Source: Arcobacter sp. LC1
GTDB lineage: Bacteria; Campylobacterota; Campylobacteria; Campylobacterales; Arcobacteraceae
DNA: 64,000 bases
Assembly: GCA_021378565.1 (NCBI GenBank)
Contig: JAACJU010000001.1
Span: 124,001 to 188,000 of the forward strand
Direction: 5' to 3'
Below the pieces are notes generated by a model. It searched no databases. It was not told the origin of the DNA and was given only the letters and a program-made list of their open reading frames with translations. Position 1 is the first letter of the stretch. The number at the start of each line of letters is the position of its first letter. The translations under genes and the position numbers were made by a program. Positions 549-4,767 of the stretch are shown here, in pieces.

Positions 549-1880
549 TCACAATATATATCTAGCAATATCTTCATCTTCCACGATATTTTTAAGTTTT
601 GCTATAACCAATTCTTTTGTAACTTTAAACTTCTCTCCTTTATGCTCATCAGCCGTATAAGAAATATCTTCTAAGACTTTTTCAATAACCGTATGCAAGC
701 GTCTAGCCCCTATATCTTCAGTTTTTTCATTTGCACTGACTGAGAGTTTAGCAAATTCTCTTATAGCTTCATCACTAAATTCCAAGTCCACACCCTCAAC
801 TCCTAGAAGTGCTTTATATTGTTTCAATAAAGAGTTTTTAGTATTTGTTAAAATTTTATATAAAGCCTCTTCATCTAGCGAAGATAACTCAACTCTCAAA
901 GGAAATCTACCTTGTAATTCAGGAAGTAAATCACTAGGCTTGCTTATATGAAAAGCTCCAGCAGCAATAAATAAAATATGGTCTGTTTTGATTTGTCCAT
1001 ATTTTGTATGAACTGAACTTCCTTCAACAATAGGAAGTAAATCTCTTTGCACCCCTTCTTTGCTTGGGTCTTGATTTCCTTTTGAGCTTTTTCCTGAAGC
1101 TATTTTGTCAATCTCATCTAAAAATATAATCCCACCATCTTGGGCTCTTTTTAATGCCTCTTGCTTCACGCTTTCTTGGTCTAGAATTTTTTCACTAACT
1201 CCATCTCTTAAAAGAGTTTTTGCGATTTTTATTTTAACTTCTTTTTTGATTTTTTCTTTATTCATTCCATTTATCATTTTATTTAAACTATCTTGCATAG
1301 AAGACATATCTATGGGCAAGTTTGAATCAAGTACTTCAACTTTTGTTTTTTTAGGTAATTCAAGCTCTATTACGGTTTCATCCATTTTGCCACTTACAAC
1401 TTTTTCTTCCATTTTATTATAAGCATTTATAAAAGATTTTTGACTAGGCTCACTTGCGCCTTTTGGTAAAGGAGGAATTAATTTTTCAACTATTATTTTT
1501 ATAACTTCACTATCAATTTGCTTTGAGATTTTCTTTTTATATTCTTTATTAACTAAGCTGATTGATTCATAAACCAAATCCCTAACCATAGATTCAACAT
1601 CACGTCCAACAAATCCAACTTCAGTGTATTTGCTAGCTTCTACTTTAACAAAAGGCAAGTTCATCATTTTTGCAAGTCTTCGTGCAATCTCAGTTTTACC
1701 AACGCCTGTACTTCCTATCATCAAAATATTTTTTGGCATAATCTCTTCTTGCATTTCAGCACTTAATTGCATTCTTCTATATCTATTTCTTAAAGCAAGG
1801 GCTATGACTTTTTTTGCTTCATCTTGCCCTATAATATAGTCATCTAAATGCTTTACTATTTCTTTTGGCAACATATTCAT
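549..1880 (-). CDS. hslU: ATP-dependent protease ATPase subunit HslU
   Basis: HslU is the hexameric AAA+ unfoldase that feeds proteins into the HslV peptidase in the cytoplasm. At 443 residues it matches the family length. Visible features are the N-terminal [15 protein letters not shown] block, Walker A GSTGVGKT at about residues 56-63, the variable I-domain, Walker [10 protein letters not shown] near residue 255, a sensor-2 stretch with GARRLHTV, and the C-terminal RYIL tail that docks into HslV. Its ATG overlaps the hslV stop by 4 nt (ATGA), so the two are translationally coupled. Confidence 0.98.
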
Positions 1881-2428
1881 TTTTCGTCATCCTTGTCTTT
1901 TGTACTAAGTATTTTAATATTTTTATTTGTATAAATGCAAAGTTCACTTGCTACAAGCAAGGATTCTTTTACTAAAACTTTGGGTTTTAAATCTGCAAAC
2001 TTATTCAAGGCTCTTGCGGCTGAGAGGGCAAAATTTCCCCCAGAGCCAATAGCAGCCAAAATTCCATCTTCAGGCTCAACCACATCTCCCGTACCACTTA
2101 AAATAAAAAGATTTTTACTATCAAGCACCAACATCATAGCTTCAAGTCGTCTTAAAAGTTTATCTTTTCTCCAAGCTTTTGAAAAATCAATAACTGCTTT
2201 TAATAAATCACCTTTTCTAGTTTCAAGATGTTCTTCAAACATATCAAAAAGATTAAAAGCATCAGCCGTACTTCCTGCAAAACCTGCTAAAATCTTGCCC
2301 TTATAGAGTGTTCGAATTTTTGTAGCATTTCCTTTTAAAATTGTATTTCCGAAAGTAACTTGCCCATCTCCACCAATAACAGCTTCGCCTTCGCCTTTAT
2401 AAGCAAGTATAGTAGTAGCGTCAAACAT
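1877..2428 (-). CDS. hslV: ATP-dependent protease peptidase subunit HslV
   Basis: HslV is the threonine peptidase of the HslUV (ClpQY) protease. The 183-residue product begins [12 protein letters not shown]. The first Thr of TTI (residue 5) is the expected catalytic N-terminal nucleophile after removal of a four-residue propeptide. [16 protein letters not shown] and the IAIGSGG block are typical of the family. The gene overlaps the small ORF upstream by 8 nt and hslU by 4 nt. Together with rplI they form one minus-strand transcription unit. Confidence 0.98.
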
Positions 2429-2845: not shown

Positions 2846-3295
2846 TTAGCTCTCTCCCATAACATCAACTTTAATCAAAGCATTTACACCATGCCCTAGT
2901 TTACAAGTAATCTCAAAAATACCAGGAGTTTTAATCTTGTCTTCTAAAACAATATTTTTTTTATCTATTATGATTTTTAATTCATTTTCCAAAGCTTGCG
3001 CTATTTCTTTATTTGTGACTGAACCTATCAAATGCCCATTTGCACCGACTTTATGTTTTATTGTTAATTTTGAAGAATTTAGTTTTTCTGCTAAATCTTT
3101 TGCTTCTTGAATATTTTCATTTTCTTTTTGCTTTTCTTTTTTTATCTGTGATTCGTATCTTTTTAAAACATCATTAGTAGCTAGCAGTCCAAAACCTCTT
3201 GCTATTAAAAAGTTTTTACCATATCCATCTTTTACTTCTTTTACTTCTCCGCTTTTACCAAGACTTTTTACATCTTTAATTAATAATACTTTCAT
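2846..3295 (-). CDS. rplI: 50S ribosomal protein L9
   Basis: L9 binds 23S rRNA at the base of the L1 stalk. The 149-residue product has the conserved N-terminal domain MKVLLIKDVKSLGKSGEV followed by GYGKNFLIARG, the long Lys/Glu-rich connecting helix at about residues 45-75, and the C-terminal rRNA-binding domain. It is the first gene of the minus-strand unit that continues through the small ORFs to hslVU. Length and motifs are normal for the family. Confidence 0.98.
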   Translation of the reverse strand: MKVLLIKDVKSLGKSGEVKEVKDGYGKNFLIARGFGLLATNDVLKRYESQIKKEKQKENENIQEAKDLAEKLNSSKLTIKHKVGANGHLIGSVTNKEIAQALENELKIIIDKKNIVLEDKIKTPGIFEITCKLGHGVNALIKVDVMGES

Positions 3296-3385: not shown

Positions 3386-4015
3386 TTAATCTTTAAGCTC
3401 AAACTCTTCTCTCATATTTCTTTTTTTAACATAGTTATTTAAACCAATGTGATTATTATACCCTAATAGCTTTGATATTTTTCTAACAGACAAGCCAAGA
3501 CTTAGTAGCTCTTGAATTTTATCTTTTTGTTCATCAAATTTTGATTTTTGTATTGTCCCTTTTGGCTTTCCTAAAATTACACCCTGATTTTTCTTTAAGA
3601 TTAAGGCTTCTTTTGTTCTAAGGCTCATTAAGTTTTTTTCTAGTTTTATAGTCATAGTAATAATATTTAAGATAACTTTTGTAAGTGTATCTTTGTTTGA
3701 TACTAAATCAAGATTTTGTTTTATTGCAATAATTCTTATATTATTATCAAGAAAATATTTGATTATTTCTAAAATATTTTTAATAGTTCGTCCAAAAGAA
3801 TTAATATCACTTACTATTAAAGTCACATTCCTAGGACAAGTTTTTAAAAGATGTAATATTTTTCTTTCTTCATCAGGGTTATTTATTTCAATAGCTATTT
3901 TATCATCAGCGAGTAAAGAATTACTAAGTAAATACTTAGTAATGATTTCTTTTTGTTCTTCATTGTAAGAAATGTTATTTTTATTAAGACGCAGAAAAAT
4001 AATCGTTTTAGACAT
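3386..4015 (-). CDS. Serine-recombinase-like protein with altered catalytic residues
   Basis: 209 residues with the architecture of a small resolvase/invertase: an N-terminal catalytic-type domain (about 1-135), a linker containing GKPKGT, and a C-terminal helix-turn-helix (about 165-205, LLSLGLSVRKISKLLGY). The motif normally reading YxRxS reads FLRLN, so the nucleophilic serine appears replaced by Asn. The DRLGR motif reads NSFGR, losing its first Arg while keeping GR. Similar invertase/recombinase-like genes occur in this phylum. No inverted repeats or partner element flank it. I infer a DNA-binding, non-recombining protein, but a shifted alignment of the serine (ISYNEEQ) cannot be excluded. 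Confidence 0.8.
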   Translation of the reverse strand: MSKTIIFLRLNKNNISYNEEQKEIITKYLLSNSLLADDKIAIEINNPDEERKILHLLKTCPRNVTLIVSDINSFGRTIKNILEIIKYFLDNNIRIIAIKQNLDLVSNKDTLTKVILNIITMTIKLEKNLMSLRTKEALILKKNQGVILGKPKGTIQKSKFDEQKDKIQELLSLGLSVRKISKLLGYNNHIGLNNYVKKRNMREEFELKD

Positions 4016-4203
4016 TTTAACCCTTTACAAAAAGTATAAATTTTAAAAAAATATACAAAATAGCTATTTTTATACTTCTTTTTTACATATACAAATATTA
4101 TCATTTTTTATTTTAAATTTCTCTTATTTTATTGCTTCAAGCTAGTAAAAAGATTTTTTTGCTAAAATCTCTTAAAATATATTTCTTGAATAAAAGGCAA
4201 AAA

Positions 4204-4767
4204 ATGAAATTAATACTTGCAATTACAGGAGCTAGCGGGACAAAATTGGCTATTAAATTTGCCAATTCTCTACCTGCATCTATTTCCTTGCACTTAGTAA
4301 TCTCTAAATCTTCTAAAAAAGCTTATGAATTAGAATGCCAAAAAGAAATAAATATAAAACATAAAGATACAATGATTTATGAAAATGAAGAAATATGGGC
4401 AAGTATCGCTTCTAGCTCTTTTGGAGCTGACGCTATGCTAATATTACCCTGCTCTATGAATACTTTGGCAAAATGCGCTTGTGGAATAAGTGACAATCTA
4501 ATTACAAGAGCATTTTCTTGTATGCTCAAAGAAAAAAAGAATATTATCTTAGCGCCAAGAGAAATGCCTTTTGATACTATTGCTTTGAAAAATATGCTAA
4601 AGTTATCTAAACTTGGGGTTTATATTGCTCCTCCTATTTTAGGTTATTATTCTAGCCAAGAAAATTTAGAAGATATGGAAGATTTTTTACTTGGAAAATG
4701 GTATGATTTACTAAATATAAAAAATACAAAATACAAAAGGTGGGGTGATGAAAAAACAAAATTATAA
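4204..4767 (+). CDS. ubiX: Flavin prenyltransferase UbiX
   Basis: UbiX attaches a dimethylallyl group to FMN to make the prenylated flavin cofactor used by UbiD-type decarboxylases. The 187-residue product starts MKLILAITGASGTKLAIKF, the FMN-binding N-terminus of the family, and contains the conserved PCSMNTLAKCACGISDNLITRA block and the PREMPFD segment. I use the ATG at 4204, which has AAGG just upstream, instead of an in-frame codon at 4132. It overlaps coaD by about 20 nt and heads a five-gene operon. Confidence 0.96.
   Translation: MKLILAITGASGTKLAIKFANSLPASISLHLVISKSSKKAYELECQKEINIKHKDTMIYENEEIWASIASSSFGADAMLILPCSMNTLAKCACGISDNLITRAFSCMLKEKKNIILAPREMPFDTIALKNMLKLSKLGVYIAPPILGYYSSQENLEDMEDFLLGKWYDLLNIKNTKYKRWGDEKTKL

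Follow-up and report, generated by a model that had tools for sequence, protein, structure and literature searches.

DSR, as we call the serine-recombinase homologue encoded in the window (the whole 64-kb stretch of Arcobacter sp. LC1 DNA that was analysed), is probably a domesticated resolvase of the Tn3 type that only binds DNA and regulates its own gene from an operator derived from a res site. In the sequence comparisons that underlie this reading, we find a family-wide loss of catalytic residues, a single group in the phylogenetic tree, purifying selection focused on the helix-turn-helix (HTH), a conserved array of candidate sites in the promoter region, a half-site that is shared with relatives, and no crossover core. 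The positions of the relevant features in the window are compiled in Table 1.

Table 1. Features in and around the DSR locus, in window coordinates
Feature	Position	Strand	Basis
hslU, after hslV	549-1880		NCBIfam
hslV, after rplI	1877-2428		NCBIfam
rplI, next downstream gene	2846..3295	-	NCBIfam, synteny; other genes there in some genomes
DSR, serine-recombinase homologue without catalytic residues, 209 aa	3386..4015	-	ORF, Pfam, AlphaFold2 model
Linker and C-terminal HTH, residues 149-205, best-conserved part of DSR	3401..3571	-	Pairwise identity
NSFGR, residues 72-76, equivalent to gamma-delta D67-R68-L69-G70-R71; R68-equivalent lost, R71-equivalent kept	3788..3802	-	Orthologue columns, profile alignment
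Codon of Asn11, nucleophilic-serine position (gamma-delta S10)	3983..3985	-	Profile alignment, orthologue columns
TTATACTTTTTGTA, array member proximal to the ribosome-binding site	4026..4039	-	Family PWM; 0/2000 shuffles reach score; unique in 64 kb
TGTATA half-site at -42, DSR upstream region	4052..4057	-	
TGTATA half-site at -78, DSR upstream region	4088..4093	-	
ubiX, divergent neighbour of DSR	4204..4767	+	NCBIfam, synteny

The DSR reading frame is free of internal stop codons, and its minus-strand translation contains the stretches FLRLNKNN and DINSFGR. Both its match to the Pfam Resolvase family (PF00239; E value 1.2e-10, 42.1 bits against a cut-off of 23.3) and its AlphaFold2 model (mean pLDDT 88.8), in which a catalytic domain, a long E helix (residues 110-143) and a C-terminal HTH are apparent, place DSR by fold among the serine recombinases. 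When the model was compared with solved structures, the top match by Z score was gamma-delta resolvase on DNA (1gdt; Z 13.9, 182 aligned residues, rmsd 9.8), with which other serine recombinases were tied within one Z unit; Foldseek ranked the Tn3 resolvase 5cy1 first. These data bear out the sequence-only reading in two respects: the protein is full length, with linker and HTH intact, and FLRLN and NSFGR stand at the positions of the YxRxS and DRLGR motifs, both in the translation and in the alignment with gamma-delta resolvase.

We set the active-site columns by aligning gamma-delta resolvase with a profile built from 46 sequences of the family and its relatives (set A3). In this profile alignment, S10 of gamma-delta falls on DSR residue 11, R8 on residue 9, D67 and R68 on residues 72 and 73, and R71 on residue 76. 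The DSR protein of the window carries Asn11 at the position of the nucleophile and Ser73 at that of the second catalytic arginine (R68), in agreement with the loss of the nucleophilic serine that had been proposed from the sequence. Excerpts of a study of Tn3 resolvase describe contacts of R8 and R68, and a proposed contact of R71, with the scissile phosphate (PMC4499144). Among 94 DSR orthologues from 104 Arcobacteraceae genomes (window genome included), the nucleophile column holds Asn in 86, Ile in three and Ser in three, while two do not cover it. The R68-equivalent column reads Val in 92 orthologues, Ser in one, Ala in one and Arg in none, and Lys occupies the Arg119 column in all 94. By comparison, relatives outside this group (30 close and 18 distant ones) possess the R68-equivalent in 48 of 48 cases, and Ser in all 46 that cover the nucleophile position. 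L167, whose frame is broken early as extracted, was excluded from these residue columns. Since the R68-equivalent is absent from every orthologue and present in every outside relative, the catalytic loss goes beyond chance. Judged on the window protein and the 94 orthologues, DSR lacks both marks of a competent serine recombinase, the serine of YxRxS and the Arg68-equivalent of DRLGR. Of the two residue changes singled out at the outset, the loss of the arginine is constant among the orthologues and the Asn is not. The constant features of the family are the loss of the R68-equivalent and the exchange of Arg119 for Lys, rather than Asn at the nucleophile position.

DSR is a nearly universal constituent of the family. 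Besides the window's own gene, 93 orthologues were found at 56-68% identity, and the orthologue matches cover 19 of 20 genera. If one counts genome G019, whose gene is cut by the contig end just past the start, and four copies of a sister genus (g6), a DSR copy or start is present in 99 of 104 genomes. The contig carrying ubiX ends within the DSR gene in G019, in the intergenic region in G020 and in the promoter array in G048; TGTATAA is visible at the truncated loci of G019 and G048. No DSR gene was found in G070, G074 and G101, and G070 and G074 did not yield ubiX either. In a search of 398 genomes across the order, 81 had a match at E<=1e-20. Of these, 34 do not belong to the Arcobacteraceae, and the ten fetched from among the 34 all possess the Ser and Arg68. 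DSR homologues additional to the orthologue exist in some genomes of the family, and the eight Arcobacteraceae paralogues fetched are all of the distant kind. A phage origin of DSR was considered and rejected; none of the seven matching phage records extends over more than 75% of the protein.

In a maximum likelihood tree of 72 rows (36 of the 92 complete dead orthologues, that is, those without catalytic residues, together with four g6, 14 close and 18 distant sequences), a branch supported at 100/99 sets the dead orthologues and the g6 copies apart from the other sequences. L162, L166 and L167, as well as the two cut orthologues L284 and L286, were excluded from the tree and identity set. 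We infer the direction of descent from a midpoint root placed on this unrooted tree, a procedure that comes with long-branch warnings.

Loss of the catalytic residues has not been accompanied by decay of the gene, as the sequence-only reading had maintained. The dN/dS ratio of DSR has a median of 0.21 and a maximum of 0.44 (1078 of 4186 pairs, those with dS between 0.05 and 1), and no stop codon interrupts any of the 94 orthologous matches. Purifying selection is strongest on the linker and HTH (0.095, versus 0.24 for the catalytic domain), which supports the further proposal that the putative DNA-binding part is the one maintained. Mean pairwise identity among the 92 complete orthologues amounts to 60% for the catalytic domain, 78% for the E helix and 88% for the linker and HTH; the corresponding values among close relatives are 71%, 82% and 72%. 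Between orthologues and close relatives, the catalytic domain is 27% identical, the E helix 59% and the linker with the HTH 69%, a C-terminal similarity that is inflated by the retrieval of most close relatives through C-terminal peptide patterns. However, L031, a relative found by whole-protein search, exhibits a like contrast to the orthologues (28% versus a mean of 70% for residues 149-205). DSR is maintained, above all in the part predicted to bind DNA.

The region upstream of DSR carries a recurrent arrangement of short motifs. Motifs common to many orthologues are located near -87, -53 and -19, with consensus sequences like TAACATTTTGTATAA, TTAAACATTATGT and TATACTTTATGTAAAAGGA, and their layout is compatible with abutting dimer sites of the form TGTATAA...TTWAACA. 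In the 42 loci with a match to this pattern, the putative dimer site spans 28-31 bp, and either 30 or 31 bp in 34 of them. The array is situated between a likely -10 region and the ribosome-binding site; TGTATAAT resembles an extended -10 box, so that some of the motif may belong to the promoter. These tandem putative subsites are clear across the family and diverged in the window genome, in which TTATACTTTTTGTA is the only array element to rise above shuffled sequences by the family PWM; the array PWMs J1 (p 0.71) and J2 (p 0.89) do not do so there. Two copies of TGTATA are present in the 160 bp upstream of the window gene, a number matched by 0.1% of 2000 shuffles. The sequence-only reading held that no invertible element or inverted repeats flank the gene; between positions 2800 and 5300 we detected only imperfect AT-rich pairs, so that this part roughly stands, but the array of promoter sites had been missed.

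The half-site is enriched upstream of dead orthologues. We counted 63 copies of TGTATAA in 39 de-duplicated regions, versus 6.9 in shuffled sequences (maximum 16). This dead set was drawn from the window and L033-L090; two regions were too short, and 35 later-added loci were excluded. Upstream of close relatives, which possess the same HTH, 19 copies occur in 20 regions (11 of them with at least one) versus 2.8 after shuffling (maximum 7), whereas 12 regions from distant relatives with another HTH contain a single copy versus 1.5. The close and distant sets represent 20 of 29 and 12 of 18 regions, respectively, after de-duplication at 85%, a threshold at which upstream regions of related genomes are still non-independent. 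A ranking of 7-mers in which no word had been preset placed TTGTATA third in the dead set (32 of 39 regions versus 5.9) and seventh in the close set (12 of 20 versus 2.2). When the dead-array PWMs were applied to single upstream regions at p<=0.05, the response was weak among close relatives (3, 4 and 4 of 20 regions) and amounted to 1, 0 and 0 of 12 among distant ones. In seven loci of genus g2 (L034, L035, L039, L052, L057, L066 and L088), the array is shortened. The shortened arrays, the weak PWM response, the divergence in the window genome and the lack of TGTATA upstream of the g6 copies all weigh against the autoregulatory reading.

The sister genus g6 (four genomes of 1.3-1.5 Mb) presents a picture of its own. 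Its DSR copies (L091 3956-4576, L092 3941-4552, L174 3992-4609 and L175 3971-4582) have kept the Ser, carry Lys in place of Arg8, and possess no Arg68. They have no TGTATA array, and ubiX does not adjoin them within the flanks that were fetched; in all four genomes, TGTATA is missing from the 200 bp upstream of the DSR copy, and it is likewise missing upstream of the two of four ubiX genes that were located. The g6 copies represent an independent course of decay or reuse.

Relatives that retain the catalytic residues (from Legionella and other bacteria) have both the HTH and the TGTATA half-site in common with the DSR family. In addition, the strict core AACGnnCGTT is found upstream of 18 of 29 close relatives (14 of 20 after de-duplication), at -107 to -120, and TGTAT lies immediately to its left in nine of these 18 regions. 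A relaxed core pattern matches 28 of the 29 regions; it was fitted by eye, and the strict count is preferred. In the DSR family, ACGnnCGT is present in none of 90 dead upstream regions. The family is therefore devoid of a res-type crossover core of the kind found in its close relatives, a pattern that would miss a different core. One example is L031, a resolvase encoded on a Legionella fallonii plasmid, which is 44% identical to DSR over 97% of the protein. Unlike DSR, it has kept the Ser, Arg8 and Arg68, and an upstream TGTATAGCATAAAACGGACGTTATTATACA site carries the core; it adjoins an annotated Tn3-family transposase.

With respect to the Tn3-family TnpR proteins and their res sites, DSR shares the fold, the HTH and the pairing of half-sites about 30 bp apart, as well as (putative) tandem sites upstream of its own gene, from which autorepression would be expected. 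Unlike TnpR, most of its members are missing the nucleophile, and the family has no second catalytic Arg and no crossover core; there is no transposase beside the gene, which is chromosomal and embedded in a conserved gene order. Excerpts from two studies report that TnpR represses tnpR and tnpA (PMC7157771), and that binding and synapsis of sites persist in an S10A-substituted Tn3 resolvase with an activated background (PMC4499144). If an active TnpR represses its own gene and S10A resolvase still binds, then removal of catalysis leaves an autorepressor acting on its own res. By this analogy, an autorepressor on res would account most economically for the combination of a dead enzyme, a coreless array and a conserved HTH.

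We envisage the following course of events. A Tn3-type (TnpR-like) resolvase would have been captured early in the Arcobacteraceae, and would then have lost its catalytic apparatus while being retained as a DNA-binding protein. Dimers of DSR would bind pairs of TGTATA-type half-sites, each pair spanning about 30 bp between its outer ends. These pairs follow one another head to tail along the DSR leader, downstream of the likely promoter and ahead of the ribosome-binding site. Bound DSR would repress its own transcription, as active TnpR represses tnpR from res, a role that we read from the position of the array; with the ancestral crossover core gone, no recombination would ensue. Autoregulation through the array would be the main job of the protein. 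More tentatively, the entire resolution module of a transposon, both resolvase and res, might have been domesticated, with recombination lost in parallel and recognition kept. The outcome would be a core protein of bridging or regulatory function, which would synapse the tandem dimer sites, leave them uncut and thereby loop its own promoter. On this speculative extension, which we consider rather unlikely, the nucleophile and the Arg in the enzyme and the crossover core in the site would be the parallel losses, and recognition would have been kept throughout the history of the family.

A different role is suggested by the neighbourhood of the gene. In the window, the named neighbours of DSR are hslU, hslV, rplI, ubiX, coaD, tmk, hisS and speA, with no linked tnpA among them, and 53 of the 58 loci checked have ubiX in divergent orientation to DSR, a count that excludes 35 loci of later-added orthologues. 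At three of the five other loci, the contig ends on the ubiX side, and the remaining two (genus g7) lack ubiX there. This gene order could mean that DSR serves specifically to regulate the genes on its divergent side, ubiX-coaD-tmk-hisS-speA, and that the conserved neighbourhood reflects such control. We regard this as unlikely, because the array is placed on the DSR side of the DSR-ubiX intergenic region, and because in both g7 genomes the DSR gene, although away from ubiX, has kept an upstream TTAACATTATGTATA element while ubiX has no TGTATA upstream. The array hence appears to go with DSR and not with ubiX. The genes downstream of DSR were also considered as a cause of its conservation; this was rejected, since the downstream gene varies in several of 21 loci.

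Searches for further targets bear on the view that DSR is a nucleoid or DNA-bridging protein, whose dimers at scattered sites would synapse without cutting, like S10A resolvase. The synapsis of sites by a catalytically dead resolvase in vitro, described in parts of the Tn3 resolvase study (PMC4499144), and the well-conserved E helix are in its favour. However, the exact dimer pattern TGTATA-N16-19-TAWACA gave 99 matches in 12 genomes versus 164 for the reversed control, although degenerate binding would escape such a search. The junction motif TAACATTNTGTATAA has 39 matches in 104 genomes, of which 30 are at the DSR promoter and only nine elsewhere, versus 20 for the reversed control; the seven off-promoter matches inspected have neither common DNA nor a recurring gene. 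With TGTATAA-N13-17-TTAWACA, the first 21 genomes contributed 33 of the matches listed versus 98 for the control, and these were scattered and in many cases hairpin-like. We consider a nucleoid function unlikely, although degenerate sites could still sustain it. Since exact sites are not in excess elsewhere, the data point to DSR as a local autoregulator rather than a nucleoid factor or a wide regulator. A second DSR target was not found with exact patterns, and other targets, if any, are degenerate or few. With its own promoter as the sole target, DSR would bring no evident benefit; it likely has weaker targets or some additional role.

Two observations were made in the course of these searches. 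Around position 1501 of L241 (g2 genome G030), an array-like run of TTATACA half-sites separates an upstream ORF from a hypothetical gene; it is possible that this run is a second DSR target in one species. An element of the form TGTATAAT...TTTAAACA recurs away from DSR in six g2 genomes (G002, G004, G006, G011, G023 and G024), and could represent a conserved promoter instead of a site for DSR.

The relationship with transposon-borne resolvases could also be taken to mean that DSR is an anti-transposon factor, which, having retained specificity for the sites of invading Tn3-type elements, would occupy their res sites and poison their resolvase dimers. The similarity of its linker and HTH to those of close relatives with intact catalytic residues (69% identity) and the TGTATA half-site common to both would fit, as would the finding that the relatives' crossover site (TGTAT-N7-9-AACGnnCGTT) has no match in 104 family genomes and 20 in the reversed control. 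The absence of a site does not show exclusion, though, and no close relative with retained catalytic residues turned up in the family, where the eight paralogues fetched are distant ones, which leaves this factor without a known present target; we consider such a function very unlikely.

Still less probable is continued recombination by DSR, be it through another nucleophile or together with an active paralogue. The R8-equivalent is indeed retained by 92 of 92 orthologues and the R71-equivalent by 94 of 94, three orthologues (L088, L285 and L287) have a Ser at the nucleophile position, and some genomes contain further homologues. Yet, Asn or Ile occupies this position in 89 of the 92 orthologues covered, the three Ser carriers likewise lack R68, the family has no crossover core, and no second DSR homologue is present in the window genome at E<=0.001. 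An alternative active-site serine, for which the stretch NNISYNEEQ had been named as a candidate, found no backing either: the column of residue 16 is not conserved as Ser and holds Lys in 33, Glu in 18 and Ser in 12 of the 94 orthologues, besides other residues. The idea that the gene is decaying and its conservation incidental, to which the lost catalytic residues and the less conserved catalytic domain might be adduced, deserves practically no credence in view of the dN/dS values over 1078 pairs, the uninterrupted reading frames and the spread of DSR across 19 genera.

Among curated NCBIfam models, the best match is that of the Mpi-type DNA invertases (NF009949), which all 46 members of set A3 match at E<=1e-5. 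DSR attains 91.1 bits, under the cut-off of 272, and no invertible segment was seen. The YneB resolvase-like family of Bacillus (NF049883) resembles DSR in being chromosomal; its model matches five of the 46 A3 members and has no match in the window genome at E<=0.001. In Bacillus, yneB is located in an SOS operon. Hosts are known to recruit both recombinases and transcription factors from mobile elements, and DSR seems to be such an exaptation of a mobile-element protein. In the sections available to us, serine recombinases figure in a 2022 review of such recruitment as switches for inversion or excision and not as binding-only regulators; the review makes no mention there of a dead serine resolvase, and no case of chromosome segregation by serine resolvases is known to it (PMC8987985). 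The open-licence literature that was searched contained no title or abstract concerning the DSR gene. Genes of this type are presumably annotated as plain recombinases. With DSR, one can trace a serine resolvase together with its site through a loss of recombination in which recognition was kept, and the use of a recombinase that can no longer recombine becomes a question that can be addressed at the bench.

Two groups of records deserve mention for their provenance. The Arcobacteraceae DSR locus also occurs in metagenome-assembled genomes that bear the titles Helicobacter pylori PMSS1, Desulfosporosinus and Sulfurospirillum (L130, L131 and L142); these records probably have a wrong name or a mixed content. 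Another resolvase, with intact catalytic residues and a different HTH, was encountered in other families of the Campylobacterales and in one Arcobacteraceae genome (L176-L181 and L187, the latter from the Arcobacteraceae). Its upstream DNA is nearly identical in L176-L178, and this resolvase has the look of an element that is mobile or has moved recently.
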